Positions 3,690 through 30,445 of a DNA stretch of 39,252 nucleotides are shown piece by piece (the stretch's first letter is position 1; every line of letters starts with the position of its first letter). The DNA is taken from contig JAKQNZ010000093.1 in assembly GCA_029565535.1 (NCBI GenBank), forward strand, positions 1 through 39,252, given 5' to 3'. Below the pieces are notes generated by a model. The model ran no database searches. It was not told where the DNA came from and worked only from the letters and a program-made list of their open reading frames with translations. The position numbers and the translations under genes are program-made. This DNA is from Candidatus Cloacimonadota bacterium (GTDB lineage: Bacteria > Cloacimonadota > Cloacimonadia > Cloacimonadales > Cloacimonadaceae).

Positions 3690-5426
3690 ATGAAAACAGC
3701 ATTGTGTACCTTATTGTGTTTGTTGTTTGGCATCCTGAATGCCACTGCGATAAGCTATGAGCGTGCCGCAAGCTATGCCAGCCAGCAGTTGAATGTTTTA
3801 TATCCTGATCATGCACAGGATAGTTATGATGTGTTAACCGACAATTCCCAGGCGATCGCCTATGTATTTCATCTGCTTCCGACCGGTTATCTGGTTGTTT
3901 CAGCCCAGGATGAGCTACCTCCGCTCTTAGCGTATTCAGGCTCTTCCGAATTTGGGAGTCTGGAGGGAGATAATATTCTGCGAGATATTATCGTTGCCGA
4001 CCTGCAATCCCGCCAGCAATCAGAAATCGCCGCGGATCTAAATCGCCAGGCCTGGCAAAGTATCACCAATCCTCGAACCTTCCAGCAATGGCCCCCCGCC
4101 GGATATTCTACCACCGAAGGATGGATAAAGACCAATTGGACGCAAAACGCCCCCTATAACTGGATGTGCCCAATGGATCCAATTAGCGGAACCAGAAGCT
4201 ATGCAGGGTGCCCGACCGTAGCCATGAGCCAGATCGTAAATTACCACAGATCTTTAAATGGCACGCGTTTGGACGATAGCGACGATTATCTGCATAATTA
4301 TGGCGGCCGTTATTATTGGATAGATAACGATTACGCTGCCCATGGGTTTCCTTCCTTCCCGCAATTAAATGGCTACCTCGACCAGGTGAACGATCGCTTT
4401 CGTTATGGCCAGGAGCTTAGTGACAGCCTGAAGGCTGCTCTGATCTTTGCCTGTGGAACAGCTATGAAACAGGTTTATTCCTCAGAGGGTTCCGGAACCT
4501 TTGGTGTAAACCAGGCTCTTCAGGGTTTTGAAAGATTCAATTTTCCAAATGTTGAACTGCTGACCGAAAACTCTCCCGGTCTCTATACCCGCATCAGCAA
4601 TAACATAAAGAATGCCCAACCTGTTCACCTGGCGGTAGTTACTCCAGCCTGGGATATGGGACACAACGTAGTGATAGATGGTTATAATACAAACGAATAC
4701 TATCATCTGAATTTTGGCTGGGGCGGACAATACAATGGCTGGTATCTGCTGCCTTCGCAAATCCCTTACGGGCTCACTGTGGTAGAAGGTGCAATAGTGG
4801 ACATCGCTCCCTACCAATACGTGTTTACGGTTCCCGACACCTTAATCTGCCAAACCAATACCCCGGCTACTTTGGAGATAAATAATCTGCATGATGAAGC
4901 GATTGTGCTGGAAGAAATTCTGTTCGATACAAACAGTGGTGGTTATGATTGGACCATAGCCTATTCTTCGCCCTTACCCGCTACCATTCCGGCCGGAGGG
5001 CTCTACACCCTCAGCCTTACCCAAAATTATGGCGGAGGGAAAAATCGCTATTGGGAAACCAGCCTTACCTTAATTCTGGATCAGGGCTTTGCCACTGTCC
5101 CCGTAAAATATGAAGCACCTGTAACGGTTACGGACGATTTAATGCCTGTCCAGGCTTTAAAGCTGACTAACTACCCCAATCCCTTCAACCCCGAAACCAC
5201 GATCAGCTTTACTTTGCCTGAAAGCGGATTGACCAGCCTGAAAATTTATAACTGCAAAGGGCAAATGGTGAAAGAGCTTTTTAAGGCTGATCCTGGCGCA
5301 GGAACGCACAAATGTGTGTGGAATGGCACAGATAACTCCGAAATACCTGTTGCCTCGGGATTATACTATTGTGTGCTGGAAAAAGGCTCGTCCAGAACCG
5401 CGAAGAAATTGCTATTGATGAAGTAA
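3690..5426 (+). CDS. Secreted C10-family (streptopain-like) cysteine peptidase with C-terminal type IX secretion sorting-type domain
   Basis: Signal peptide; Spi-like propeptide region; catalytic Cys in YAGCPTVAMSQIVNYH, His in MGHNVVIDGYN, NFGWGG; C-terminal LTNYPNPFNPETTISFTLPESG...SGLYYCVLEKGSSRTAKKLLLMK. Confidence 0.9.
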   Translation: MKTALCTLLCLLFGILNATAISYERAASYASQQLNVLYPDHAQDSYDVLTDNSQAIAYVFHLLPTGYLVVSAQDELPPLLAYSGSSEFGSLEGDNILRDIIVADLQSRQQSEIAADLNRQAWQSITNPRTFQQWPPAGYSTTEGWIKTNWTQNAPYNWMCPMDPISGTRSYAGCPTVAMSQIVNYHRSLNGTRLDDSDDYLHNYGGRYYWIDNDYAAHGFPSFPQLNGYLDQVNDRFRYGQELSDSLKAALIFACGTAMKQVYSSEGSGTFGVNQALQGFERFNFPNVELLTENSPGLYTRISNNIKNAQPVHLAVVTPAWDMGHNVVIDGYNTNEYYHLNFGWGGQYNGWYLLPSQIPYGLTVVEGAIVDIAPYQYVFTVPDTLICQTNTPATLEINNLHDEAIVLEEILFDTNSGGYDWTIAYSSPLPATIPAGGLYTLSLTQNYGGGKNRYWETSLTLILDQGFATVPVKYEAPVTVTDDLMPVQALKLTNYPNPFNPETTISFTLPESGLTSLKIYNCKGQMVKELFKADPGAGTHKCVWNGTDNSEIPVASGLYYCVLEKGSSRTAKKLLLMK

Positions 5427-12563: not shown

Positions 12564-15500
12564 TTACAGATTTACTTCTACCCAAACACCCAGCCTGAAG
12601 ATTGAGGTACCGTCGTCGCGCTTTTTATCAGCATTCATTTCATAGCTGCTGGTGAGCCCGCCTTTGATATTTGTATCAAACTGGTAAGTAGCTTGAGGAG
12701 AGAAGGTAAGCCTGGAAGTGCTACGGTCGACCAGAACTGTATTGCCTTGGGTCTCATCATAGTTTTTTTCGTAGGTTATTCCCAACGAAGAGGTTAATTC
12801 GTTTTTTATATGGATCTTTTTCTGGGTAAAGGGAATGGTGAAGCCGCGTCCAGCCCTGAAGCTGTAGGAGAGATTTCCGTTCATGGATTGGGAGTCTGTC
12901 GTTTTGATGATGTTCCGATCGACCATGGCAGTTATGTTTTTTGAGCGGGATATTGCATAGCTGAGGTTTGTGCTGACCTTGCCAAGGATGTTGCCGGTGA
13001 ATCCTAGCACCGGGTTCATGCCTGTGGTAAAGGTCTCCTGTTTATTGGCCGTGATTTGATCGGGATTTCCAGTTTCCCGGTATGAGTACTGGAATCCGCT
13101 GTTCAAGCGGCTGCCAGTGATGAATTTTTGAATCCCTAAAAGTGATTCCAAATCGGAAAGAGTGAGAGTAATGTCGGGGAAGGTCCAGCCAAGGGTTTGA
13201 TTGCTGGCGGTAGATTCACGCATGTTATTTGTGTATGAGTAGTTTATCACGCTATCCAGGCGTCGGGAAATGGCGATCCCGCTACTCAGAGTAAGCGTAT
13301 TATCATCGCTGATAGCTTCCAGCGAGTCCTTTACCAAATCATGTGGAAGACCAATCTGGAAGGCAAAAGGATAGGCATCGTTTTTGCGGGCATAATTCAT
13401 GGTATAGCCATTCTGATATGAGGCTGTGATGTTCTTAAACCGGGATAACAGGGATAGAAATCCGACTACGGGATTCCCCCGCGGTTTTTTGGGCTTGGAA
13501 ACAGCCTTTCCAGAATCAGACACTGCCGGTTCTTTCAATCCGTCTGAGGGTATTTGAACTTCTGCCTTTGGTTCTTCAAAATTTTCAAGCTGAGATAATA
13601 GCTCCTGCTCCAACTTTTCAAGCTCTTCAGGGCTAAGCTGATCCTGTAATTCCATCAATTTTTTGTTTGCAGCTTCCCGGATCTTCATCTCTTCATCGCT
13701 TCGCTTGATGTCATCAGAGGGCTCTGATTTAGGCGGGTTGATATCTTTGTCTTCTTTGGGCAGGGGCTCTACCATGCCATCCTTGGGTTTCGGTTCTTCT
13801 TTAGTTTCTTCCTGCTTGGGCTCTTCCTTTGGAGCGGGTGTTTTCGCTTTCAGGCTTTGTACCCAGGAGCCAAGCAAGGTGGAGTTCTGCAAGGTTAGGT
13901 TCAAGCGAATTGTGCGGTTTGTATTTCCATCACGCTGATAATAATCTACATATTGGCCGTCTTCCAACTGCGAATATTTCCTTTGGGTATCGGAATATCT
14001 GGCTGCCACGGAGGAAGTGAAATTCATTACACGCGGAAAGTAGTTTGGATTATAATTCAGCCCCAAGTCTTGAGTGTAGGTGGTTAGTTTGCCTATGTTT
14101 ACGACCCAGAGAGAATCCCTTTGTTTCAGGTCACGGTTGGTGTTCAATCTGGCTGTGGCCGAGAGGTCGCTCAGGATGTTCCAGCTAAGGCTATTATCGG
14201 AAGTGAGGGTTCTGGTGTCGGTGGTTTGAGTTCTCCTGTTCCAGAGCAGGTAAGTGGTGTTTGTGGCGCGGTCCCAGCTTTGCGGTTCATTGGCGCTGAA
14301 AGTAAAACTATTGCTCCAGTTATGGGGGAAATATCCCATGCGATAACTTTTGTATAATTTCAGGCTGGTTTTCTCGGCAGGCAGATTGAGGTTGTAATTC
14401 AAGGTTCCCCGATAGGCCAGGATGTTGTCCCGAGCAGTGGGAGTCTCGTTCTTCGAGCTTTCCACGCGTCCGCTGACAGAGATGTTCTTTATCGTGTACA
14501 AAAGGATTTTGTTTTTGGGCGGTATCTTTTGGCTGAATCCGAAGTCTGCGCTGTAACTTACACGTTTGCTTTGTTCTACGGCACGAAGACTGTCGTTCAG
14601 GATGTTTTCTCTCAAAAGGTCGGAATTTGCTTTGAAGCGGGGTGTGCCTTCTGTGTTTACATAAGCAAGGGAAATAGGAATGTCCAGGTTCCAGGATGCC
14701 GGGAAGAGCTTGTTCACATAGTACTTATTCGTGATGTTCAAGCTCCTTGTACTCGTGAAAGTATTGGTTCTTCCCCTTTGGATATTGGTGTTGAAGTTCT
14801 CGCTTTTATCCTCGAAATCCACATTCAGGGTTGCCACATCTGCAAAGCTGGCATTCAAACTGAGGCGCTTGGCAACGCCAATGTCTTCGTAGGGGTCAGC
14901 AACCCGGATATCGTTGAAATACACAGTCCCAGTAAAGGGTTTCTCATCCGCAGGCCTGGTATAATAGCGATTGGGAATGAAAACCCCCAGGTTCAAATCG
15001 CGAATGTTATTTAGCAAAGGATTGCCTCGCTTGTAAAATCCTTTGCTGTAGTCTGGTTGATCATTGTCGAGATAATAGATCAGCGAATCGGCATGATCAT
15101 AAGCCTGGCTGGGGTTCAGCTCTTTCACCGCGACCAGCTCTTGCAGGTCGATCTCCAGTTGTTGCCAGTTTTCGGCTCGCATTCTGTCTGATGAGCGATT
15201 TTGTGAATAGGGATTTACCTTTACTCGTTGCCGAACTTGATAGTAATTCAGGGAATCCGCTCCGATCCTGAAAATGATGAACACCGAGTCCGGATTGGTA
15301 GTGGAATTTGGCGCAGACTCGGGATAAACCCAAAAACGTAATTTACCGTAAGACCGCAGGTCAAACTGGTCTTGCAACCTTTGTCTCAGAAGAACCATCT
15401 GGCCAGGCTGAAGCTTTGTGAGTTCCACTGATAAGGCGGATTCTGCAGATACCTTCTTATCTTCCATGTACCAGGTGCCATCTGGTGAATTGTAGTGGCT

Positions 15501-18500
15501 GTTCTTTTGATTGCTAACGATGCCCGTAAGGTAGGTGGTGCCGGTAAGCGCGAGAACACTTGGTTTGATAATCAGGTTATGGTTGTTTACGGTGCTTGGA
15601 TAATCCGGGGTTGTGCCTGTTTTCCAGCTAAAATCGCGGATATAGTTATCCTGCCATTTGTTGCCGACCAAGGATATATCAGCGATTCTAACTTTTACGG
15701 GATCGGGGGAGTTCGTTTCCAGCCAGATTCGTGCATAAGACACTTTCTGCAGGCTGGGCATGGCACTGGAAGGCATATCGTTTACCACAGTATAAAAGCG
15801 AGGGTCGTTCAAAGGTATGCGGATGAGCTTCCAATTCTTTTTCAGCGAGTCGACCACCACTTCAGGATCGGGATTTAGCAAGGAGAATGAGTAGCTCAAA
15901 TAGCGGTTCAGGGTGTTCAGAATTCCGTTGCCGTCCAAATCCTCTGTATCCAGGATCCGGTTTTCTTCGGTTCCATTTACCTTGGAATAATCATCTCCAT
16001 CAGGAGGAGCTGCGATATCCAATGGATCATGTCCCGGGTCATTTTTGCTTATTCCGTCCAGACCAATATCTTCGGCTATGGTTAGCTCGCCATCAGAGTT
16101 TCTGTCTTCAGTGTTTTTAATTCCATAACCGCCATATTCTGTATAAAAGTCTTCCGAGATATCTCCCAAATCCAAATGCAGGGTTACATTTGGATATTCG
16201 GTTGCGTTATTTTCCTTGTGATCAAGCTGAACCAGCAACTCCAGATACTTCTTTTGGGAAAAATCAAGCTGATTGCCCAGGTATTTCATCACTCCGGCCC
16301 AGCTTTGAGTTTCGGCCCCAGGGATGAATACCGGATTGGGAGTGGCTTTGAGAGTAAGAACCGTTACATATTCATTTTTTTCTCTGTCGGTTAAAAGGCT
16401 GTCCGGTTCAATGTCTATCCGTTTTACATCCTTTGCATTATACCAATTCATGCGGCCCTTGGCGAGATTTATATCGTAGGGTTTGCTACCCAGCACCCAA
16501 TTGCTATAGGTAACCCCCAGCGGATAGGAATCCATGATGGCTTCCATATCGTCGATGTACGCTTCTTTCTTTTTGCCATCGGGGTTGCCATAGATGTTGG
16601 GAAGAGTGAAGGCCATTTCACCTGAAAGGCTTAGTTCAGTGGGTGAACTGGTTTTTATGAGAGGCAGGGCATCAATCACTTTGGTAACGAAGAAGGGTTT
16701 TACTTTCAGTTCGGCATCCACGTTGCCCATCAGCATTTCGATATTTTCGTTGCCAATTCTGGGTCTTTTGTCGGCCACAAATTCACTGCGATAAATCAGA
16801 GTTCCGCCCAGTTTCAGATTATCTGAGGGTTTATATTCAGCTCTAACTCCGGCCAGGTTTTTTTGGGCTACGCTGAAGAGGGTTCGGGATTCAAACTCCA
16901 CTTCGATTTTTGCTTCGGGGTCTTTTCCTGCAGGAGTAAGGAAGGTAAGCCTGCCAAAGTCGTAGTCCACTATATAATCTACGTTTTCCCTTTGTTCTGT
17001 GCCATTAACCTTCACTTTCACGCTACCTCGCAAAACGCCGGCTGAAGATAGCTCAATGGCGTCGCGTCCGATTTTACCTTTAATTCCGATAAAAATGTCG
17101 GTGGAATCCTGATAGCTGTATTCATCTTCCGTTTCCTTGCGGTAGATGATACCGTCTCCCAGAGCCAGGAATGGTTCGATGAAGGGAATGATGATCCAAC
17201 CTTTGGTCAGGTTCACAGTTGCATCATCGCCGTTGATGATCCCATCCTCGCTGTTATTCGCATTTAGGCGGAGATAATCATTGTAGGTTACCACGTTTTG
17301 GGTGGCAACTTCATTGGGCAGATTATAGTTTCTGGTAAGGTCAACGTTCTGGGTGTAAACCTGCAGTTCAAAACCATCGCTTTTGATATTCGTACGGCCC
17401 ATGTCGTAGATATTGCGCATCTGGTAATGCCAAGAATTCAGCAAGTCTTGGCTCGGAGTAAGCTCATTGGGATTATAGGGGCTGTATTCCTGGTATCTTT
17501 TTCTTAAAACCCTTACCTGCAAACGGCTGGAGCCGGTTTGAAGCGGAACCTGGATCCCGTCCTGACGTTCGAAGCGCACCCCCAGAGTTCCGTTTCGTTC
17601 TATGTTTCGCAGCAGAATTATCGTTCCATTGGCGTAATCGGTAATATAATCCGTGCCTTCTGCCAAGCGGTCGTATTTTGGGAAATAGGTTTGAGGATAA
17701 CCTCCAGCCCAATAAACAGAATCCCCTTCTGTAGTCTCGTTATCGTTGGTGGAATTGGCGTCATCAAACCAAACTTCCACGGTTCCGCTTTTGGGTAGCC
17801 GATTTGTTTTTACTCTCCAAGTGCCATCAGGGTACGTCTTTATCGCATTATTTACCCATCCCTTGGGAACTGATGCCGAATCAGCCGGGCCATAAAGCTC
17901 GTACAGCTCATAGGGATCATCGAGGAAATACATGGTGCGTCGGGCATATTTCCAACTACTGACTATGGAAGAATCAGCCTGGCTTTTTCCCACAAAACTC
18001 TGCACGTTTTTCTGGCTTTCTTCTTTACTGGCGATCACGCTGAGGTCGAGATCGCCATATTTGAATTTCGAAGTAATTCCAAATAGCCCTTGTGAACTGG
18101 CAGAATAGCTTATATAACGGCTTCCACCCAAAGACAAGGTGATGTTGCCACCCTCGATGCTTTTGGTGAATTCGTCGTCAACCCCGGTGTATTTCACATT
18201 TACGTTGTTGGCATCAAAAATCTGATCATCCTGCTTGGAGTTATACTTAAAGTTTATAGCAATCTTTTCGCCAATTGTACCGGAAAGCCGGAGATTGGTC
18301 TCGGTTTCCATCTTCATATCAAATACGTTTTTACCAGAGGTATCGTAGATGGGTACCTGTTTTCGGGATGTGTTGCTTACCGAAAGGGTTAGCTTCTGTG
18401 TTCCATCCAGATTCAGTCTGCCAGCAGTGGAACCTATAAGCTTTTGCACGGCTTTGGGAATCGCAATGTCCGGCAGCACGGAGATGTCTTTGATAAACCC

Positions 18501-18962
18501 GCTGCTGGTGGATTGTGCTGTTTGGGTTTGGGTTTTTATGTTATTCAGCAGTGATTTACGAAAAACTTTGCTACGTAGATTGCTGAAGTAGTGGTCAAAT
18601 GAAATAGTAACATCCGGGCTTAGCTTAAATTCGCCAGTCTGTATGCTAATGATTACCCTCTGATTTGCAAAATCTACTTTCTCTTTGTGTTCAGGTGCAA
18701 AAGCGGTTATTTCAAAAGGCTTGGCGCGGTGGATGTTATGCCCCTTGTCGATTTTGTAAAGCTCGATCCGGTTGTTGATTATCGGATTATACCCTCCCAG
18801 ATACAAGCGCGGAAAAAAGGCTCTTTCTAATGATGAATCCAAAGAATCTGCCGGGGAGCCAGCTTGGGCCTTGTCTGCACCAGAAGTAGCGGCATCAGGC
18901 TTTTGGGCAAAGAGAGCCAGGCTGATGCACAGACTGAGGCAGAAAAGCAGGACTTTACGCAT
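12564..18962 (-). CDS. SprA-like (type IX secretion translocon family) giant outer-membrane protein
   Basis: 2132 aa; signal peptide; SprA-type N-terminus and repeats (QKLTLSVSNTSRKQVPIYDTSGKNVFDMKMETETNLRLSGTIGEKIAINFKYNSKQ), YLSYSFSLLNP, FNDIRVADPYEDIGVAKRLSLNASFADVATLNVDFEDKSENF, beta-strand-rich C-terminus. Confidence 0.85.
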   Translation of the reverse strand: MRKVLLFCLSLCISLALFAQKPDAATSGADKAQAGSPADSLDSSLERAFFPRLYLGGYNPIINNRIELYKIDKGHNIHRAKPFEITAFAPEHKEKVDFANQRVIISIQTGEFKLSPDVTISFDHYFSNLRSKVFRKSLLNNIKTQTQTAQSTSSGFIKDISVLPDIAIPKAVQKLIGSTAGRLNLDGTQKLTLSVSNTSRKQVPIYDTSGKNVFDMKMETETNLRLSGTIGEKIAINFKYNSKQDDQIFDANNVNVKYTGVDDEFTKSIEGGNITLSLGGSRYISYSASSQGLFGITSKFKYGDLDLSVIASKEESQKNVQSFVGKSQADSSIVSSWKYARRTMYFLDDPYELYELYGPADSASVPKGWVNNAIKTYPDGTWRVKTNRLPKSGTVEVWFDDANSTNDNETTEGDSVYWAGGYPQTYFPKYDRLAEGTDYITDYANGTIILLRNIERNGTLGVRFERQDGIQVPLQTGSSRLQVRVLRKRYQEYSPYNPNELTPSQDLLNSWHYQMRNIYDMGRTNIKSDGFELQVYTQNVDLTRNYNLPNEVATQNVVTYNDYLRLNANNSEDGIINGDDATVNLTKGWIIIPFIEPFLALGDGIIYRKETEDEYSYQDSTDIFIGIKGKIGRDAIELSSAGVLRGSVKVKVNGTEQRENVDYIVDYDFGRLTFLTPAGKDPEAKIEVEFESRTLFSVAQKNLAGVRAEYKPSDNLKLGGTLIYRSEFVADKRPRIGNENIEMLMGNVDAELKVKPFFVTKVIDALPLIKTSSPTELSLSGEMAFTLPNIYGNPDGKKKEAYIDDMEAIMDSYPLGVTYSNWVLGSKPYDINLAKGRMNWYNAKDVKRIDIEPDSLLTDREKNEYVTVLTLKATPNPVFIPGAETQSWAGVMKYLGNQLDFSQKKYLELLVQLDHKENNATEYPNVTLHLDLGDISEDFYTEYGGYGIKNTEDRNSDGELTIAEDIGLDGISKNDPGHDPLDIAAPPDGDDYSKVNGTEENRILDTEDLDGNGILNTLNRYLSYSFSLLNPDPEVVVDSLKKNWKLIRIPLNDPRFYTVVNDMPSSAMPSLQKVSYARIWLETNSPDPVKVRIADISLVGNKWQDNYIRDFSWKTGTTPDYPSTVNNHNLIIKPSVLALTGTTYLTGIVSNQKNSHYNSPDGTWYMEDKKVSAESALSVELTKLQPGQMVLLRQRLQDQFDLRSYGKLRFWVYPESAPNSTTNPDSVFIIFRIGADSLNYYQVRQRVKVNPYSQNRSSDRMRAENWQQLEIDLQELVAVKELNPSQAYDHADSLIYYLDNDQPDYSKGFYKRGNPLLNNIRDLNLGVFIPNRYYTRPADEKPFTGTVYFNDIRVADPYEDIGVAKRLSLNASFADVATLNVDFEDKSENFNTNIQRGRTNTFTSTRSLNITNKYYVNKLFPASWNLDIPISLAYVNTEGTPRFKANSDLLRENILNDSLRAVEQSKRVSYSADFGFSQKIPPKNKILLYTIKNISVSGRVESSKNETPTARDNILAYRGTLNYNLNLPAEKTSLKLYKSYRMGYFPHNWSNSFTFSANEPQSWDRATNTTYLLWNRRTQTTDTRTLTSDNSLSWNILSDLSATARLNTNRDLKQRDSLWVVNIGKLTTYTQDLGLNYNPNYFPRVMNFTSSVAARYSDTQRKYSQLEDGQYVDYYQRDGNTNRTIRLNLTLQNSTLLGSWVQSLKAKTPAPKEEPKQEETKEEPKPKDGMVEPLPKEDKDINPPKSEPSDDIKRSDEEMKIREAANKKLMELQDQLSPEELEKLEQELLSQLENFEEPKAEVQIPSDGLKEPAVSDSGKAVSKPKKPRGNPVVGFLSLLSRFKNITASYQNGYTMNYARKNDAYPFAFQIGLPHDLVKDSLEAISDDNTLTLSSGIAISRRLDSVINYSYTNNMRESTASNQTLGWTFPDITLTLSDLESLLGIQKFITGSRLNSGFQYSYRETGNPDQITANKQETFTTGMNPVLGFTGNILGKVSTNLSYAISRSKNITAMVDRNIIKTTDSQSMNGNLSYSFRAGRGFTIPFTQKKIHIKNELTSSLGITYEKNYDETQGNTVLVDRSTSRLTFSPQATYQFDTNIKGGLTSSYEMNADKKRDDGTSIFRLGVWVEVNL

Positions 18963-20081: not shown

Positions 20082-20111
20082 TTGACAGCCAGCCTTGGTT
20101 GGATTTCCTAT
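20082..20111 (+). promoter_or_regulatory. Candidate sigma70-type promoter for the caspase/cyclase cluster
   Basis: Consensus -35 TTGACA at 20082 with a weak -10-like TTCCTAT at 17-18 nt spacing, upstream of ATG 20140. Confidence 0.45.
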
Positions 20112-20139: not shown

Positions 20140-22608
20140 ATGGACAAAAGATTCCTGTTGGCACTTATTATATTACTGGCTACCAGTATGTTATCTGCCG
20201 CCAGAAAGGCGCTGGTGATAGGTAATGCCTCGTATCAGGATAAACCGCTTCTCAATACCGTAAACGATGCGCAGGATATAAAGAATAAGCTGGAGGCTCT
20301 CGGTTTTATGGTGCGGCCTGTTTACAACGCCAATTTTGAGCAAATGGGACGTGCAATTCAGGAATTCACTAATACTTTGGACTCTGTGGATGAAGCAGTT
20401 TTTTATTATGCCGGACATGGAGTTCAATTGGATGGAGAGAATTATCTGCTGCCGGTAAGCCCCAGAATCACAGATAAAATCTCGGTGCAGTATAACTCCA
20501 TAAAATGTAATGAAATCATTGAAAGGATGGAGCGTCCGCGGGTTGCCATAATCTTCCTGGATGCCTGCAGAGATAATCCTTTTTCCTGGGCCAGGTCTCT
20601 ATCCCGGGGTTTGGTTAGCATAGGCAGAGTTTTCCCGAATCAATGTGTGGTTTTCAGCACCCAACCTGGCGACGAGGCTGCAGATGCAGGTGCCAACGAG
20701 CGCAATAGCCCCTTTACGGCAGCCTTGTTGAAATATATCGACCAGCCAATGCGTTTCGAAGATGTTTTTTTGAGTGTACGCAACGAAGTGGAACAGCAAA
20801 CCGGCAACAAGCAGATACCTTCCCGCTATGGTGATTTGAGAGAGACCTATTATTTCGTAAAGGAAACTCTGAAGCCCGAGCTTGGCAAGGCAATTGATAT
20901 CCCCACGCTCCCAGTAGCTATCACCAATCCTCCCGAGGTTCCAAAACCGGATTCCGTGCCCAAGGAGAGCGTGGCTGGCAGTTCCCTACAATCTTCTACC
21001 GGCAGTTCAACTCATCTGGAGAAACCGGCATCAAACCAAGGAAGTCCAGAATTACCAACTGCAGTTAAGGTAAAAGAAGAAGTGGTTGTGTTGCCAAACA
21101 CCTCAGCGGTTCCTCCTCCTGTCCCCAAACCAGTTCCTGTTACGGCTTCTCAGCCGGAAACCCCAACCTTGGACAAGCCAATCCCTGAGCCGGAGAAAAA
21201 AATAGAAACAACCGATCTTCTGAGCAGCTTGAATGAATTTTTTGCCAAACAAGGAACAGGCAGTACGCAAACAAAACCTGAAGTTCCACCTGCTAGCAAT
21301 AAGCAAACTCAGGAGCCAGCTAAGCCTAAGGAAGCGGCTATACCTTCTGAGAACCCAACTCAGCCTCAGAAAATTGACCAAAAACCTACACCCTCGACAT
21401 CTACTCCTATCCCTCCTCCTCCAGCCTCCAACCTGGCAAACACAGCTACAGAACTGGCAGTTTTAAAGCCGGAAAAGCCAGTGGAAACCAAGAAAACTGA
21501 AGCCCCGGACAAGGCATTGCCCAAGGACGAATATGGTTCGATTGAGGTTTTGGTGAACGCAGATGGTGAGATTTTTATCGATGAGCATGAAGTGGCCTAT
21601 AAGAGTATAAAAAAGAATACGATTTTGCCCATAAATCAGCTTAAAACCGGCAAATGCAAGATTACTTTCAAGTCCGTCAAATACATGGATACAAAGGAAT
21701 TGATTATTGAAAAGGATCAAACCCAATTGGTGGAGTTCACTTTTCCGGAGCCTCCTGTGCCCAAGGGTTTGATGCAGATTTCAGGCGGAAGTTTTAGCAT
21801 GGGTTCCAAAAAGGGAGACAGGGCGGAACAACCCGTGCACACAGTCAGCATCGGCACTTATGCGATCGGTATCACAGAAGTGACAGTGGGGCAATTCAAT
21901 AGCTTTATCCAGGGAACACGCTATAGAACAACAGCCGAAATGAACGGCAAGGCCTACATTGTTGACAAGAAGAATGCGAACTTCAAACAGGAGAAAAACA
22001 TTTCCTGGCGTAAACCTGGCTACGAAGGCAGCGACGACCATCCCGTAAGCTGTGTTTCCTGGTTTGATGCCATCAGCTATTGCAATTGGCGCAGCGCACA
22101 GGAAAACCTCCAGCCCTGCTACAGCCTTAACCACAGCTATAACCCAGGAGATTGGACCAAAGGAACAATCATCTGTGATTTCTTGGCAAACGGCTACCGC
22201 TTGCCCACTGAAGCTGAATGGGAGTTTGCAGCCAGGGCTGGGCAAAAGGAAAGCCTCTATAGTGGCGGTGATAATCTGGATGATCTGGCTGTTTATGCCA
22301 AAAACTGTGATTGGCAACCGAGCCGAGCAGCCTCCAAGCAACCAAACGGTTTCGACTTGTACGATATGAGCGGAAATGTGGCTGAGTGGTGTTGGGATTG
22401 GTATGAAGAGAGTTATTACTCAAGAAGTGAAAGCCAGAATCCCACGGGCCCATTATATCCAAACCGAAAGACAGAAGGGAGAAGGGTTCTACGCGGAGGT
22501 TCCTGGTATAATGGCGATAAAGCCTGTAGAGTAAGCAGCCGGGAAGGGTGGGAACCTGAGCGTTGTGACAACGGAAACGGGTTCAGGGTAGTAAGAAGCC
22601 TTCCCTGA
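20140..22608 (+). CDS. Secreted caspase-domain (peptidase C14) protein with proline-rich linker and C-terminal SUMF1/FGE-fold domain
   Basis: Signal peptide MDKRFLLALIILLATSMLSA; RKALVIGNASYQDKPLLNTVNDAQDIKNKLEALGF, YYAGHGVQ (His), FLDACRDNPF (Cys); Pro/Lys/Glu-rich linker; MQISGGSFSMGS...HPVSCVSWFDAISYCNW...YRLPTEAEWEFAARAG...LYDMSGNVAEWCWDWY...RVLRGGSW. Supplied ORF starts at 20095; ATG 20140 fits the signal peptide. Confidence 0.88.
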   Translation: MDKRFLLALIILLATSMLSAARKALVIGNASYQDKPLLNTVNDAQDIKNKLEALGFMVRPVYNANFEQMGRAIQEFTNTLDSVDEAVFYYAGHGVQLDGENYLLPVSPRITDKISVQYNSIKCNEIIERMERPRVAIIFLDACRDNPFSWARSLSRGLVSIGRVFPNQCVVFSTQPGDEAADAGANERNSPFTAALLKYIDQPMRFEDVFLSVRNEVEQQTGNKQIPSRYGDLRETYYFVKETLKPELGKAIDIPTLPVAITNPPEVPKPDSVPKESVAGSSLQSSTGSSTHLEKPASNQGSPELPTAVKVKEEVVVLPNTSAVPPPVPKPVPVTASQPETPTLDKPIPEPEKKIETTDLLSSLNEFFAKQGTGSTQTKPEVPPASNKQTQEPAKPKEAAIPSENPTQPQKIDQKPTPSTSTPIPPPPASNLANTATELAVLKPEKPVETKKTEAPDKALPKDEYGSIEVLVNADGEIFIDEHEVAYKSIKKNTILPINQLKTGKCKITFKSVKYMDTKELIIEKDQTQLVEFTFPEPPVPKGLMQISGGSFSMGSKKGDRAEQPVHTVSIGTYAIGITEVTVGQFNSFIQGTRYRTTAEMNGKAYIVDKKNANFKQEKNISWRKPGYEGSDDHPVSCVSWFDAISYCNWRSAQENLQPCYSLNHSYNPGDWTKGTIICDFLANGYRLPTEAEWEFAARAGQKESLYSGGDNLDDLAVYAKNCDWQPSRAASKQPNGFDLYDMSGNVAEWCWDWYEESYYSRSESQNPTGPLYPNRKTEGRRVLRGGSWYNGDKACRVSSREGWEPERCDNGNGFRVVRSLP

Positions 22609-22655
22609 ACGAAATGGAATCATGAGTATGTACTGAGATAGAAAAGGGAGATACA

Positions 22656-25600
22656 ATGAAGAAAACAGGCCTTGTGATGATACTTATCAGCCTCTTATGG
22701 GGGCTATTGACAGCTATTCCGCAACCTCTGCATATGATACCCTCGACCAAATCAAAGGAAGCTCCATTTGGTACGGATTTGTTCCACATTCAGGGCAAGA
22801 CAGTGTATTGTCTGGATAAGAAAGGGGGATTGATCAAAGCTTGGGATATCGAGCAGAAGGCCTTCATCCCAGGTTTTCTTGCCAAGCTTCCCTTGGGGAC
22901 CAAGGCTGAGGATATCTGTGGAGACGAAAACAACCTTTACATCCTGGATTCAAAGGCCAGTGCCATTCAGGTTTTCAGCTATGAAGGAAAGCTGAATCGT
23001 ACCATATCCGGCAAGGGTTCTAAGGATATCCAGTTCAAGAAGGCCATCAGGCTGTTGGTAAATTTTCAGAATTATCTCTATGTCCTGGACGCAGGACGAA
23101 ACGAATTGCTATCCTTTACTAACGAAGGCATGTTTTTGGGGAAAGTGGATGTCTTTTCTCCTATTTCGATGTGTATCGGACAGGATCAGGTGATCAGGGT
23201 TTTGCTGGATAAGAAAACACATCAGGAGATGCAAAGCTTCGACATACACCTCAATCCCGGGAAAAGTTATGAAATCCTCACTCCTCAAAACAAACCTGAT
23301 TATGTTGCTGATATCGCTATAAACCAGTATGGGGAAGTCTATACTTTATATACAGAAAGCACTAAGCTTGGAAAAGTGGATTCAAATGGTCGCTTACTGG
23401 GCAAAACCTGGGGTTCCAAAGAAAAAAGCGACAATATGGTTTCCTTTCTGGAACCCACCCGTATAAAATCTATCGCTGATCAGAACAACGCTATCCTGGC
23501 AATACTGGATAGCAAATCTAAGGTCGTGAAACTATATCTGGATAGCGATCCTATAAACTTGGAAAAACTGGAAGTTCCTCCCTTAACCATGCGCCCCAAT
23601 CTGGAAAAGATTGCCGACCCTTTTTGCTACGACAATGTTTTCACCGACTCCACAGCCTACTATCTGTATGACACTCAGGTGCAGATCGGAACTGAGAAAA
23701 AAATTACCCGCGCCGTGGCTTGCAAAAAAGATGGCAAAACCCTTTGGACGATTTTTACAGCAGGAGAAGCCAAACGTGGCGTGAAGGGTTTTGATGCCCT
23801 GGCCGTCCACAATGGAAAGTTGTTTGTGGTGGATACAAAAGGTAGCAAGATATTCGTTTATAACAGCCAGACAGGAGAATACCTGGAAAGCTTTGCCTCC
23901 AAGGGCTCCAAGGATGGACGTCTTAATAGCCCTCGCAGCATCGTGATAGCCCCAGACGGAATGATCTATGTGGCGGATTGGGGAAACAGCAGAATCGCAG
24001 TATTTAGCGAAAACACGATGTTTATCGAAAACATAGAATTCACCGCAGAAAAGCTGAAACCTCAGTTATTAAGGCTGAGTGGTTCGTATCTGTTTTTCCT
24101 GGCCAATGAAGGAAAGATCTTTGAGCTACCCCTTTCTAATACAAAGAAACTCACTCCCTTGGCAAACATGAAAAAGATAAGTACTTTCGACATAATCTAT
24201 GATGATAGACTTGGCTTTATCGACGGGGTAAGCCAACAATTGTATATCTTGCATAATAACAAGGCAGAGCACAAGTATTTTTCCTTCAATCCCAAAGCTG
24301 TGTTTCCCGGTTTTGCCAAAATCTTGCATATCCGATATAACCCGCGCGACAAGTCGCTTTTCATTTGTGATAGGTTAGCTGATAGTGCGAGGAAGCTGAG
24401 CTTTTATTACAGCCCCAAAAAACCAAAAACCATCCATTTGGGGCTGAATGCCAACCGTAAAGCAGAATTGCAATGGGATGTGGCCGAAGGCATAAACAGA
24501 TGGCGCATAACTGAGGATTCAGAGCGGGGTACTTTCGTCTATATTGTTACTGAGCCAAAATATGTGGTAAACAAAGCCCAGGCCAGTATAAATAAATATT
24601 CTGTCTGTGCTATTTCCGCAGATGGGAAAACGGGTCCGTCAAGCGAAGAAATAGAAGACGCTTGGTCTTATGCAAATTATCTGACTGTAAATGGAAATTA
24701 TGGTCAGGCGGTCCTTGCTCTGCAACGCGCAACCAAAACAATCTCTGATCCTCGATTAAACGAGGAGATTGTGAATAACTACATGCTTGAAGCCCACAAT
24801 TTGCAGCGTCTGCAGGAGTATGAAAAAGCGATCAAGACCATTGAAGCGGCCATCGCCGTAGGTGGAAACCGCAAGGAACTCATCATGGCCAAGGTGGAAG
24901 TATACAAACAAATGAAATCGTATCAACTGGGCATAGATATGCTGGAAAAATTCCGGGGTGAAGATAGAGACTTGCAACGGCAATTGATCTCTTTGTATTA
25001 CCTTAACCGCAATTACCCAAAGGTGCAAAGCTTGGCCAGTGTCTATCTGGCAAGGTTTGACAGGGATGCGGAGGTTCTTAGTCACCTTGCCATGGCCTAT
25101 GAAAACCAGAACGACTTCAACAGCGCTCTCATTTCTCAACGGGAGTTGGTCGCCATCCAGGATAATCTGGATAATAATCTCAGAATTGGCGAACTGCTAA
25201 TCAAGACCCAGCAGTATGATGCTGCCAGCAGCCATCTGCAGAGAATGTTAACCAGATTTGGCGACCAGGGTGGAGATTCAATTAACAAGCTATTGGGTGA
25301 TGTATCCTATGCCAAAGGCGATTATGGCAATGCCACAGACTACTATGAATCTGCCATCCGGATTAATCCTGGCAATGCTGAATACTATTACCGTAATGGC
25401 CTGGCTTTTACTGATGGCAGGAAAGCCCTGGAAGCTAAGATCAATCTGGCCAAAGCTTGGGAGTTAAACCCCGAAAACGTGGATTACGCCTTTGCCTTTG
25501 CCCGGGCTTTGGAGCGTGAAAGCCGTTTTACCGAAGCCCTGGCTGTGCTGGATGATATTTATAGATATGTACGCTCCGATGCCTCCAGCACCAGCTACAA

Positions 25601-27224
25601 GGATTTTTATGCTGATCTGCTTATCCGGGAACGCAGATTGGACGATGCGGTGAACGTACTTCAGACAGCGGTCCAATACGCACCTCAGGATCAAGCTCTA
25701 TTAAACAAACTACAATCAGCTCTTTTGGCCAGGGAAGAAGAGAATAAAACAAAATCTGCCATTACCGTAAAGGCCTTTCAGTTTGACCTGGTGTTTCCAG
25801 CTTTGATCGAATCCTATAAAACCAATCCCATCGGCTTGATCAAGCTGATCAATAACCGCAGCGTGCCAATACGCGACGTAAAGATCACCATCACCATACC
25901 GCAGGTCGCAGATAACTCCTTCATGCACGTTATTCCGTCCTTGTTAGCTGGTCAGGATCATGTGGTGGATATAGTGATGCCTCTCAACCGACGACTATTT
26001 GAGCTCTGCAAGGATGGGCCTGTTCAATTTCCCACTTCTCTGGCGATTGATTACTACGAAAACGACCAACCTCTGCGGATTGTATCCACAAACATAACCA
26101 TGAATGCCATGGGCATCACGGCGATGAACTGGAAAGATCGCAAGCAATACGCCAGTTTTGTAAATCCCCAGGATGAAAACCTGAGAGTATTCGTTAATAC
26201 CCAGATTACCCAGCTATTCTCAGGTATCAGTACCAGCCAGTTGAATAAAAACATCCAGCGGGCTATTCAGATTTGGAGCTATTATTCTGCCAATGGTATA
26301 CGATATGTATCGGACAATACGGCAAGCAATGTGGTAAGCGCAGAAGTGGATTATGTGCAGTTTCCTTTTCAAACCCTGGTTCGCAAGGGGGGAGATTGCG
26401 ACGATCTTCTGGCTTTGTTGGCGGGCTCGCTTTCGGTTATTGGCGTTCCCTGCGGTTTTCTGGATGTCCCCAACCACGTTATGTTGATTTTCGATACAGG
26501 GATGAAGCCAGAGGAAGTGATGAGCAGCGGCATAGAGGTAGACCAGTTTTTATTCCGCAACGATAAATACTGGGTTCCCTTGGAAACAACCCTGCTTGGC
26601 AAGGAAAACTTCACCACCAGTTGGAGAGAAGCTATAAAAAGGTACAAAGACTATTGGGAAAAAGGAATTTCACCTGTGGCAATCGAATTTACCGACGCCC
26701 ACAAGCTCTATCCTCCAGCACCTTATACCGAGGCAATTCCAGTTCGCCAGTTTGATGGAGCGTCACAGGCTCAAAGCCTTTTCCGCAGCGATAGCGAATC
26801 GATAATGCTGATGAGCCAGATAAGCAAGGAAGAAGAATTTCGCAATACTCTGGCAAAGTACCCTTCAAATCTCAACGTTAAAAATCAATATGCCCTTTGG
26901 TGCGTTCAAAATGATCGTTCAGCTACCGCCCAGGACCTTTGGAATCAGATTCTAAGACAAGATCCGGCCAATTTTGCCGCGTTAACCAATCTGGGCAGCT
27001 TGCTTCTTAGCAATGGCCTATATCAGGAAGCCAGGATAAAGCTATTGGAGGCACTAAAACAAAACCGGGAAAAAGACAATGTAATCCGTAATCTCTGCAT
27101 CCTGGAGTATCGAAGTGGAAATCTCAGCAAAGCGCGGGAGTATTTTTATCAGCTCAGCGATCGCAATGTACTGAAGAACCTCGATCCCAAAACCTATGCA
27201 GACTTGATGGGTGGAGGAGAATAA
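22656..27224 (+). CDS. Large secreted protein with NHL/beta-propeller repeats, TPR repeats and a transglutaminase-like domain
   Basis: 1522 aa; signal peptide; SKDGRLNSPRSIVIAPDGMIYVADWGNSRIAVF (NHL); multiple TPRs (LLGDVSYAKGDYGNATDYYESAIRINPGNAEYYYRNGLAF); RKGGDCDDLLALLAGSLSVIGVPCGFLDVPNHVMLIFD (transglutaminase-like). Confidence 0.82.
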   Translation: MKKTGLVMILISLLWGLLTAIPQPLHMIPSTKSKEAPFGTDLFHIQGKTVYCLDKKGGLIKAWDIEQKAFIPGFLAKLPLGTKAEDICGDENNLYILDSKASAIQVFSYEGKLNRTISGKGSKDIQFKKAIRLLVNFQNYLYVLDAGRNELLSFTNEGMFLGKVDVFSPISMCIGQDQVIRVLLDKKTHQEMQSFDIHLNPGKSYEILTPQNKPDYVADIAINQYGEVYTLYTESTKLGKVDSNGRLLGKTWGSKEKSDNMVSFLEPTRIKSIADQNNAILAILDSKSKVVKLYLDSDPINLEKLEVPPLTMRPNLEKIADPFCYDNVFTDSTAYYLYDTQVQIGTEKKITRAVACKKDGKTLWTIFTAGEAKRGVKGFDALAVHNGKLFVVDTKGSKIFVYNSQTGEYLESFASKGSKDGRLNSPRSIVIAPDGMIYVADWGNSRIAVFSENTMFIENIEFTAEKLKPQLLRLSGSYLFFLANEGKIFELPLSNTKKLTPLANMKKISTFDIIYDDRLGFIDGVSQQLYILHNNKAEHKYFSFNPKAVFPGFAKILHIRYNPRDKSLFICDRLADSARKLSFYYSPKKPKTIHLGLNANRKAELQWDVAEGINRWRITEDSERGTFVYIVTEPKYVVNKAQASINKYSVCAISADGKTGPSSEEIEDAWSYANYLTVNGNYGQAVLALQRATKTISDPRLNEEIVNNYMLEAHNLQRLQEYEKAIKTIEAAIAVGGNRKELIMAKVEVYKQMKSYQLGIDMLEKFRGEDRDLQRQLISLYYLNRNYPKVQSLASVYLARFDRDAEVLSHLAMAYENQNDFNSALISQRELVAIQDNLDNNLRIGELLIKTQQYDAASSHLQRMLTRFGDQGGDSINKLLGDVSYAKGDYGNATDYYESAIRINPGNAEYYYRNGLAFTDGRKALEAKINLAKAWELNPENVDYAFAFARALERESRFTEALAVLDDIYRYVRSDASSTSYKDFYADLLIRERRLDDAVNVLQTAVQYAPQDQALLNKLQSALLAREEENKTKSAITVKAFQFDLVFPALIESYKTNPIGLIKLINNRSVPIRDVKITITIPQVADNSFMHVIPSLLAGQDHVVDIVMPLNRRLFELCKDGPVQFPTSLAIDYYENDQPLRIVSTNITMNAMGITAMNWKDRKQYASFVNPQDENLRVFVNTQITQLFSGISTSQLNKNIQRAIQIWSYYSANGIRYVSDNTASNVVSAEVDYVQFPFQTLVRKGGDCDDLLALLAGSLSVIGVPCGFLDVPNHVMLIFDTGMKPEEVMSSGIEVDQFLFRNDKYWVPLETTLLGKENFTTSWREAIKRYKDYWEKGISPVAIEFTDAHKLYPPAPYTEAIPVRQFDGASQAQSLFRSDSESIMLMSQISKEEEFRNTLAKYPSNLNVKNQYALWCVQNDRSATAQDLWNQILRQDPANFAALTNLGSLLLSNGLYQEARIKLLEALKQNREKDNVIRNLCILEYRSGNLSKAREYFYQLSDRNVLKNLDPKTYADLMGGGE

Positions 27225-27226
27225 TC

Positions 27227-27895
27227 ATGAAAAAGTTAGGCTTGTTTGTCCTCATGGTTGGCCTGTTGGCCAGCATTACCGCCGCAGAAGTAGTGGGAAA
27301 AATCCGCTTTCAGATTGGAGAGGTCCAATACCGGGAAACCCAAAACCAAAGCTACAAACTTACTACTCTGGGGATTAGCATTCACAAGGAGGGCTACCTG
27401 AAAACAGGCCCTGGGTCTTCAGTGGAAGTTCAATGGAACAATGGCAGCGTTAGCAAGGTGGAATCCAATACACAGATTGCGATAAGCAAGCTATTGGCAG
27501 ATGCCAGCGTGAGTGCCAATTGGAATAGCAAGCTGAAAGACAGGATAAAAAACCTGCAAACTCAAAAACGCTCTGCCAGTTCCGAGGCCGGTATTCGTAG
27601 GGAGGAAGCGGAAGTAAAAAAAGAAAGTCAGCTCTTTTGGTATCAAGATACCATATACGACCTCCAGGAAGCAATCGACTATTATGAACAGAATGATTTT
27701 GCCAAAGCCATCCCGGTTTTTGAAGGCGTGATCCAGCAAGGCCCCTTAAAAAAGGAGGCTGAATTATCTCATGCCTACCTGATTTTGATATATGAGGTAC
27801 AGGGAAACAAGCTGAAGCTGAAAAAACACATCGAATTGCTAAAGGCCGATTTTCCGAACAGCTCGACCCTGGATAGTTTGCCGCCTGAGCAGTGA
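27227..27895 (+). CDS. Secreted FecR-like domain protein with a TPR-like C-terminus
   Basis: 222 aa; signal peptide; GKIRFQIGEVQYRETQNQSYKLTTLGISIHKEGYLKTGPGSSVEVQWNNGSVSKVESNTQIAIS. Confidence 0.65.
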   Translation: MKKLGLFVLMVGLLASITAAEVVGKIRFQIGEVQYRETQNQSYKLTTLGISIHKEGYLKTGPGSSVEVQWNNGSVSKVESNTQIAISKLLADASVSANWNSKLKDRIKNLQTQKRSASSEAGIRREEAEVKKESQLFWYQDTIYDLQEAIDYYEQNDFAKAIPVFEGVIQQGPLKKEAELSHAYLILIYEVQGNKLKLKKHIELLKADFPNSSTLDSLPPEQ

Positions 27896-27902
27896 TCAAT
27901 AG

Positions 27903-30077
27903 ATGGTTTTGCGTTTACGCTATCTGGTGATAGCGCTGGCTATTCTGATAGCCTCTCTGGTCTGTGCATATATTCCTGTGCTGCAAACGGTGCTCAAAAA
28001 TGCCGACCTGCGCATTTACGACACCCTTATGCATATGCACTATGCACTTACCTACGATAAAAACAGACCAGTTTATGATAATATCTGCATAATAGACATC
28101 GACGAGCATAGCATTTCCGAGCTGGGCCAATACACTTCCTGGCCAAACCTGTTCTTTGCCGATCTGGTAAACATCCTTTCCGAAGATGAGCCATTAGCCA
28201 TCGGACTGGATATGTTTTTCACCGAAAGCGACAGTATAAGCGGTTATGGGCGAAAGAGGATGAGCGAAAAGCTGGCTTCGGTATCAGCAAATCAGGACGA
28301 AATTCTGGATGCCTTCAGCACCGACCAGGATTTTGCTGATGCTTTGCAAAGAGCAGGAAACGTTTATCTTGCTATGTTCAATAGCGATTACGCCACTTCC
28401 GACAATGCCCTTCCGGACAAACTGACTGCCTGGAGGATCAGCAATCCAGATTTCGTCAGCTTAATCTATCCTCATCCGCCCATTCCTATGCTTACCGAGG
28501 CTGCCAAAGGCATTGGCTTTGCACATATAGAGCCGGACGAATCAGGGACGATTCACGATTATCCCATTTTTCTCAGCCATGGCAATCTGAGCTACGTGAA
28601 TTTCTCGATGCAGATGGTAATAGATTTGATGGGGGTAAACCGCATAAAGGTGGACAGCCATTGCAATCTCTATGACCATGACAAGCTGATCAGCAGGATT
28701 CCGCTTAGTCCCGATTCCAGGCTGTATTTTCATTACTATGGCCCCCAAAATTCTTTTCGCTACATACCATTTTCCGATGTGCTGAACAGGCGTATTCCAC
28801 CAGGGTATTTCCGGGACAGGATTATCCTGGTTGGCAGCTCTGCTGCTGGCCTTAGGGATATTAAAAGTATCCCTTTGGACAACGACTACCCCGGTGTCGA
28901 ACTTCACGCCACTTTTTTGCGGAACATCCTGGAGGAAGATTACATTTATTGGCTAAGCCCCTGGTTTATTTTGGCTGTGAACATCTTCCTGCTGGTGTTG
29001 TTGTCTCTCATTATTCCCAATACCAAGCCCCTGGTTTCAATCTCGTTTTTCATTGTAAGCTCCCTGCTTTCCCTTCCGGCAACCTATTTTTTATACGCTG
29101 CACACAATTATACTTACCAATATACAATGCTTATCTTGCCATGGTTCTTTGGCTTCCTGGGGCTTTTCATAACCCAATCGCACGAAATGGGGGTGGAAAA
29201 ACGCAAGGTTCGCAACGCTTTTGAGCATTATGTTTCCAAGGAAGTGATCAGCCAGATTATGAAGGGGTCTCAACAGCTTACCGCAGGAGGAGAGAAGAAG
29301 ACGATCAGCGTGATGTTTGTGGATGTCCGTAGTTTTACAACCCTTTGCGAAAACTTGAGTCCGAACGAGATAACCACCTTCATGAATAACTACTTCAATT
29401 TGGCAACGGACGTAATCATCGATAACCGGGGTTTGCTGGACAAATACATTGGAGACGCCATTCTGGGCTTGTTCGGAGCGCCAGTATCCTATCCTGGTTA
29501 CGTGCAAAACGCAGTGAAGACGGCCATTACGATTAGGGATATCTCATATAAACTTGCTGAGGAAAACGCTGCTCATCCGATCCTTAAGGATTTCAAAATC
29601 GGTGCTGCGATTGCCACGGGCGAGGTGATCGTGGGTAACATCGGCTCTAACACTATTTTTAACTACACCGGAATTGGCGACAGAATGAACTTCAGCTCGC
29701 GCCTGGAGGGTTTGAACAAGGTTTATAAAACTAGTATCATAATCGATCAGGCAACCTATGATGAAGTAAACCAGATATATTTCTGCCGCAAGCTCGACCG
29801 GGTGAAAGTGAAAGGAAAATCCATCGAGTCGGATATCTACGAGGTGATCGACAGCTACGAGCGGATGCCCAGAGATTCACGAAAGATAACCTGCTTCCGG
29901 CTATATGAAACTGCTTTGTCGCTTATGACTTATGACCATTGCAACGAAGCCAAAGAACTGCTGGAAGCTGTCCTGAAGGAATATCCGGATGACGATCCCA
30001 GCAAGCTGATGCTGGAGAGGATCGAGCTGATCAACTGGGAAACCTGGGATGGAGTATGGCAATATGAAAACAAGTAG
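27903..30077 (+). CDS. CHASE2 sensor domain-class III adenylate/guanylate cyclase
   Basis: 724 aa; N-terminal TM plus extracytoplasmic CHASE2 (DIDEHSISELGQ...GIGFAHIEPDESGTIHDYPIF...ILVGSSAAGLRDIKSIPLDNDYPGVELHATFLRNIL), three TM helices, cyclase core VMFVDVRSFTTLCENLSPNE...DKYIGDAILGLFGAP...YTGIGDRMNFSSRLEGLNK. Confidence 0.93.
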   Translation: MVLRLRYLVIALAILIASLVCAYIPVLQTVLKNADLRIYDTLMHMHYALTYDKNRPVYDNICIIDIDEHSISELGQYTSWPNLFFADLVNILSEDEPLAIGLDMFFTESDSISGYGRKRMSEKLASVSANQDEILDAFSTDQDFADALQRAGNVYLAMFNSDYATSDNALPDKLTAWRISNPDFVSLIYPHPPIPMLTEAAKGIGFAHIEPDESGTIHDYPIFLSHGNLSYVNFSMQMVIDLMGVNRIKVDSHCNLYDHDKLISRIPLSPDSRLYFHYYGPQNSFRYIPFSDVLNRRIPPGYFRDRIILVGSSAAGLRDIKSIPLDNDYPGVELHATFLRNILEEDYIYWLSPWFILAVNIFLLVLLSLIIPNTKPLVSISFFIVSSLLSLPATYFLYAAHNYTYQYTMLILPWFFGFLGLFITQSHEMGVEKRKVRNAFEHYVSKEVISQIMKGSQQLTAGGEKKTISVMFVDVRSFTTLCENLSPNEITTFMNNYFNLATDVIIDNRGLLDKYIGDAILGLFGAPVSYPGYVQNAVKTAITIRDISYKLAEENAAHPILKDFKIGAAIATGEVIVGNIGSNTIFNYTGIGDRMNFSSRLEGLNKVYKTSIIIDQATYDEVNQIYFCRKLDRVKVKGKSIESDIYEVIDSYERMPRDSRKITCFRLYETALSLMTYDHCNEAKELLEAVLKEYPDDDPSKLMLERIELINWETWDGVWQYENK

Positions 30078-30349: not shown

Positions 30350-30399
30350 ATCATACCACTATCATACCGCATGCTCATGTGGTATGATAGTGGTATGAT
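30350..30399. repeat. Dispersed palindromic repeat, copy 3
   Basis: ATCATACCACTATCATACCGCATGCTCATGTGGTATGATAGTGGTATGAT. Confidence 0.9.
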
Positions 30400-30445
30400 A
30401 AGGTTTGATTACCTTGAGGTGGACAACGCCGGACGAAAATCGGGC

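Follow-up and report, generated by a model that had tools for sequence, protein, structure and literature searches.

CHASE2 cyclases with exported partners are already known. In S. meliloti the outer-membrane protein NsrA acts on the CHASE2 adenylyl cyclases CyaD1, CyaD2 and CyaK (PMC13001267), in magnetotactic bacteria a CHASE2 cyclase gene comes after mtxA (PMC4439547), and in Burkholderia and P. aeruginosa the BiofilmReg operon encodes a LysM-FecR protein together with a CHASE2 histidine kinase. The signal recognised by the CHASE2 domain was not known as of the 2016 paper on the Burkholderia operon (PMC5192318), and the CHASE2 literature that we examined reports no direct CHASE2 ligand.

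Here we analyze four genes, A to D, in a 39,252-nucleotide stretch of a Candidatus Cloacimonadota genome (hereafter the window), the last three of which form a cassette that is a variant of these arrangements. As proposed for the cassette, NsrA is an envelope protein controlling the output of CHASE2 cyclases, but it is a predicted beta-barrel and no partner combining NHL, TPR and transglutaminase-like (TGc) domains is described there (PMC13001267). MtxA, like protein C of the cassette, is a TPR-domain protein encoded beside a CHASE2 cyclase gene; it differs in having an Ig-like domain, and neither a FecR-like part nor a counterpart of protein B is described (PMC4439547). BiofilmReg likewise pairs an exported FecR-type protein with a CHASE2 receptor, but its output is a histidine kinase and it has no TGc protein (PMC5192318). 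The LapG/LapA/LapD system resembles the cassette in that a transglutaminase-like cysteine protein, likewise exported, is combined with a retention-module-like partner and with a signalling protein of the inner membrane (PMC13090378), whereas its catalytic triad ends in Asp and its signalling protein receives c-di-GMP, against a Glu and cAMP synthesis in the cassette. We found no description of the B-C-D cassette, or of its NHL/TGc/CHASE2 combination, in the open-access literature, a scope outside which most subscription journals lie.

Layout of the locus and the position of gene A

All four genes lie on the + strand, at 20140..22608 (A), 22656..27224 (B), 27227..27895 (C) and 27903..30077 (D), and re-deriving the open reading frames reproduced the co-directional arrangement with gaps of 47, 2 and 7 nt that the earlier note had described. 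In the intergenic gaps no terminator-like site was seen on the + strand, and a promoter scan of the locus gave promoter-like sites no more numerous than in shuffled sequence. Gene A encodes a caspase-fold protein with a SUMF1/FGE-like domain, its Pfam matches to Peptidase_C14 (5e-32) and FGE-sulfatase (1e-56) being far over the cut-offs. Its frame is open from a TTG at 20095, and the ATG at 20140 opens a signal-peptide-like sequence (the signal peptides of A, B and C were all judged by eye).

The earlier note had treated A to D as one unit with the caspase-SUMF1 protein among its components. What survives of this is B-C-D, which is conserved across phyla; A stands beside B only in this genome, and no homologue of A adjoins B in any of 13 loci of the family or of 80 further loci (the best 80 of 119). 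A conserved four-gene order is therefore refuted by the note's own criterion once gene neighbourhoods are compared, and a three-gene version replaces it. The gene 5' of B varies from genome to genome and is unrelated to A, encoding for example an aldehyde dehydrogenase, Dus or ARPP-1. Gene A is thus a local neighbour of the cassette and not a component, and may be co-transcribed with B in this genome even though the linkage is not conserved.

It could still be argued from the common strand and short gaps that A to D make up a proteolytic signalling or defence unit, caspase included; PADLOC caspase and Pycsar-cyclase models weakly match A and D, and the TGc region of B shares a domain with the NCBIfam 'anti-phage protein ProA'. 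We regard this as very improbable. The caspase gene is missing at all compared loci, PycC-type matches are expected for any class III cyclase, a full-length B homologue scored 41 bits against the ProA model cut-off of 1500, and the neighbouring genes on either side have housekeeping or secretion functions. Checks of the window neighbours by Pfam or PADLOC turned up no Pycsar partner (a PycTM or PycTIR effector).

The same genome (G000) holds paralogues of A on contigs C186, C165 and C62, two of which share both domains. Elsewhere in the window are an SprA-like type IX secretion protein (12564-18962) and, at 3690-5426, a peptidase of the C10 type that carries a type IX secretion tail. Type IX secretion was considered as a required shared context of the cassette and discarded: SprA is nearby here, but the Gallionellaceae loci examined have a different genomic context. 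On the 3' side of D, at 30350-30405, there is an inverted repeat made up of recurring GTGGTATGATA/TATCATACCAC elements, which could be the site of a regulator or belong to a terminator.

Distribution of B, C and D and phylogeny of the cyclase

A search of 61 relatives gave B orthologues in 15, and in the 13 family loci C and then D follow on its 3' side wherever the contig allows, with A never 5' of B. Across 125 Cloacimonadota genomes, B is present in 18 and C in 17, and a full-length D orthologue occurs in the same 17 genomes as C (in G034 D is cut at the contig end). All 17 also hold B, and the eighteenth B (G075) is on a short contig, at its end. The remaining genomes have only distant, lower-scoring CHASE2 cyclases, paralogues of D. 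Since CHASE2 cyclases in general are widespread, occurring in 95 of the 125 genomes, this distribution indicates that C and the D orthologue are present or absent along with B.

To extend the comparison to other phyla, the B alignment was scanned over one genome per species, which gave 119 encoding stretches, the best 80 of which were analyzed; the stretches were located through short conserved peptides of the TGc region, so that this region is present in them by construction. Gene maps of these best 80 show two orders. Loci of Cloacimonadota, Ignavibacteriota, Chlorobiota and Bacteroidota read B-C-D, and those of Pseudomonadota (mostly Gallionellaceae) and Thermodesulfobacteriota read D-B-C; in the Calditrichota locus B and C are adjacent and D lies at another site in the genome. 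Within the same best 80 of 119, 75 loci could be evaluated for C, and 74 of them have it directly after B (72 called automatically plus L107 and L135 by eye; the exception is L116). For the cyclase 68 loci could be evaluated: a CHASE2 cyclase gene adjoins the pair in the same direction in 62 (61 automatic calls plus L099, where B is frameshifted) and is divergent in L107 and L135. B is split into several frames in L049/L073 (G005:C107) and L099, possibly through assembly errors or decay. Neither an ECF sigma factor nor a TonB receptor, as in Fec-type systems, was found by Pfam beside the cassette in L038, L041, L045 or L103.

The history of the cyclase was reconstructed from 66 CHASE2 cyclases in a quick LG+G4 tree, with the partner-linked group picked by gene context. 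Cyclases from B-C-D loci form one clade (support 99), which also contains the unlinked Calditrichota copy; three further CHASE2 cyclases encoded by this genome fall outside it. The D-B-C cyclases belong to a separate lineage that is not cleanly one clade (p-AU 0.035). A single origin for all partner cyclases was rejected at p-AU 6e-5, a value that is only indicative, given how quickly the trees were built and how the group was picked. The plain reading of the tree is that the B-C pair was linked to CHASE2 cyclases more than once, a repetition that would be hard to explain without a functional tie.

It is against this background that a purely structural role has to be weighed, in which B and C would be envelope proteins, for example for adhesion or for surface assembly, and would share with a generic CHASE2 cyclase no more than the co-regulation of their genes. 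Propellers and TPRs often serve as scaffolds, and four loci (L068, L083, L118 and L134) have B-C without an adjacent CHASE2 cyclase, such cyclases lying elsewhere in those genomes, an observation that counts against the cassette as well as suiting the structural alternative. That alternative nonetheless seems quite unlikely to us, given that the adjacency arose with two cyclase lineages and in two gene orders, and that D is co-distributed with B and C inside Cloacimonadota.

Related cyclases occur in other settings. In two genomes of the D-B-C type (L190:5196-11648 and L192:5145-11513), an unpaired CHASE2 cyclase gene lies two small genes away from one for a CHASE2-like protein of 840-844 aa. 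Phage proteins annotated as cyclases, from Pelagibacter phage HTVC008M (KC465899.1, 12068-13777) and Methylophilales phages Melnitz, match most of the window CHASE2 cyclase at ~24% identity.

Conserved residues and domains of the three proteins

Protein D (724 aa) is a CHASE2-class III adenylyl cyclase by Pfam, with a CHASE2 domain at residues 21-369 (27963..29009, + strand; 3e-53, 181.6 bits against a cut-off of 26.3) and a Guanylate_cyc match (3e-14) to the cyclase domain at residues 465-640 (29295..29822, + strand). Class IIIb adenylyl cyclases have two metal-binding Asp residues, a Lys/Thr base-selecting pair and a transition-state Asn and Arg. The full set is invariant in 14 D orthologues, where D474 and D518 would be the metal Asp residues, K514 and T589 the base-selecting pair, and N596 and R600 the transition-state residues. 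Among solved structures the nearest relatives are adenylyl cyclases, CyaB for example. Judged by these residues the cyclase does not appear degenerate, and because they are of class IIIb the cyclic-nucleotide output that had been proposed would be expected to be cAMP rather than cGMP.

Protein B (1522 aa) begins with a signal-peptide-like sequence, followed by an NHL propeller region, TPR, Ig-like and transglutaminase-like domains and a C-terminal TPR; the NHL and TPR matches are well over the Pfam cut-offs. The Ig-like and transglutaminase-like domains (residues 1020-1400; 25713..26855, + strand) are modelled by AlphaFold with a mean pLDDT of 93. The transglutaminase-like label given in the earlier note has no Pfam match from the window protein alone, and holds through the homologues: Transglut_core matches 40 of 50 homologous segments (best 3e-5), and the Cys-His dyad of the superfamily is invariant. 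The putative catalytic triad, all on the + strand, consists of the candidate nucleophile Cys1248 (26397..26399) in G-D-C-[D/E]-D, His1274 (26475..26477) and, as putative third residue, Glu1310 (26583..26585) in P-x-E-x-T. It is invariant in 13/13 family orthologues and 78/78 homologues across phyla, 91/91 overall, not all of them independent in that some Cloacimonadota genomes are in both sets. In LapG and classical transglutaminases the third triad residue is Asp.

A sequence search of solved structures with the TGc region gave no match, nor did one of plasmids, and Foldseek with the Ig-like plus TGc model returned nothing better than E=0.003, with transglutaminase 2 and PNGase weakly matched and the Ig-like part dominating. 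Residues 1020-1400 match the N-terminus of NCBIfam NF058533, the 1903-aa ProA model, in 46 of 50 members (best 4e-17); no paper on ProA was found in the open-access literature.

Protein C (222 aa) starts with a signal-peptide-like sequence; its predicted structure then has a small beta barrel, one long helix, a linker predicted to be disordered (pLDDT < 50 at residues 116-129) and TPR helices. Of the domain calls at the locus, Peptidase_C14, FGE-sulfatase, NHL, TPR, CHASE2 and Guanylate_cyc are confirmed by Pfam, whereas FecR (PF04773) on C is below the gathering score at 13.7 bits vs 24, the best of 15 orthologues reaching E=0.015. The predicted barrel is closest to PDB 5ix9, a 'cell surface anchoring domain' (E=9.5e-4, TM 0.78 by target), for which nothing relevant was found in the open-access literature; the match of the barrel to NCBIfam retention_LapA is weak (E=0.017, 15.3 bits against a cut-off of 50).

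The linker holds the longest invariant run in C, AGIRR (residues 121-125; 27587..27601, + strand), which is identical in 15 Cloacimonadota orthologues and near-invariant across phyla as [AG]G[IV]R[RG]. B-C-D loci have AGIRR or GGIRR and D-B-C loci mostly GGVRG, usually followed by [YF]W and then TPR. In the D-B-C form of C (Pseudomonadota/Desulfobacterota) the helix, motif and TPR are kept and the barrel is lost; the barrel is therefore not essential, and helix, motif and TPR constitute the core. Because genuine FecR proteins adjoining unpaired CHASE2 cyclases carry a similar 'AAIRGT', the motif is probably FecR-derived. Two such FecR-like proteins, with TAVAAIRGT, belong to a second CHASE2-cyclase operon in Ignavibacteriota/Bacteroidota (L069:4311-9661 and L187:4968-10337), in which the FecR-like gene is followed by one for a protein of ~800 aa (no Pfam match in L069) and one for a CHASE2 cyclase.

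These features bear on a more specific alternative, that of protease-gated cAMP synthesis, in which the TGc domain of exported B would cut its operon partner C at or beside [AG]G[IV]R[RG] in the disordered peptide, much as LapA is cut by LapG behind its retention module, cleavage or CHASE2 sequestering of B would set the cyclase output, and D would read the cut or uncut state. C appears to be built like a LapG substrate, with a beta domain, a poorly conserved helix and a short, conserved small-residue motif in an unstructured stretch, and in B the Cys is flanked by acidic residues, an arrangement also present at the Ca site of DvhG, where D316 and E318 surround C317 (PMC13090378). To this may be added the resemblance of the barrel to 5ix9 and, weakly, retention_LapA, and a weak LapG match of the TGc region in 10 of 50 members (best 0.0019). 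Every Lap match, however, is far under the curated cut-offs (14.4 bits against 320 for LapG on the TGc region), the triad is C-H-E in 91/91 homologues and not the C-H-D of LapG, short forms of C have no barrel, and the motif may be the 'VRGT' strand of FecR, present also in unpaired FecR proteins (TAVAAIRGT in L069 and L187). As no membership threshold is reached and a FecR origin suffices for the conservation of the motif, we hold cleavage of C by B to be unlikely.

A candidate envelope-signalling cassette

The reading that we favour, and hold to be somewhat probable, is that B, C and D work together as a single signalling cassette in which exported B and C control cAMP synthesis by D. This agrees with the association drawn in the earlier note between exported propeller/TPR/transglutaminase-like and FecR-like proteins and a CHASE2 cyclase, an association that gene-neighbourhood data indicate is conserved across phyla. 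We infer that B and C are exported and that D spans the inner membrane, with CHASE2 outside and the class IIIb adenylyl cyclase inside. B would sense or process an envelope factor through its propeller/TPR scaffold and its transglutaminase-like cysteine-enzyme domain, which we presume to be catalytic, and C, as a small FecR-like/TPR adaptor, would relay the signal of B through the conserved linker, the proteins presumably making physical contact. The CHASE2 domain of D would then turn the B/C signal into a change in cAMP, to be read by cNMP-binding proteins. Four proteins of this kind are over the cut-off in the genome; the cAMP effector is uncertain because the single HTH_Crp_2 match is partial and below cut-off.

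The occurrence of the partner pair beside two CHASE2 cyclase lineages, with an invariant active site and a conserved peptide, turns the question of CHASE2 sensing into one with residues that can be mutated. The cassette is found, moreover, in groups in which envelope signalling is little studied, such as Cloacimonadota, Ignavibacteriota and Gallionellaceae, and if the protease-gated reading were true, a LapG-like proteolytic switch would be wired to cAMP synthesis across many phyla.
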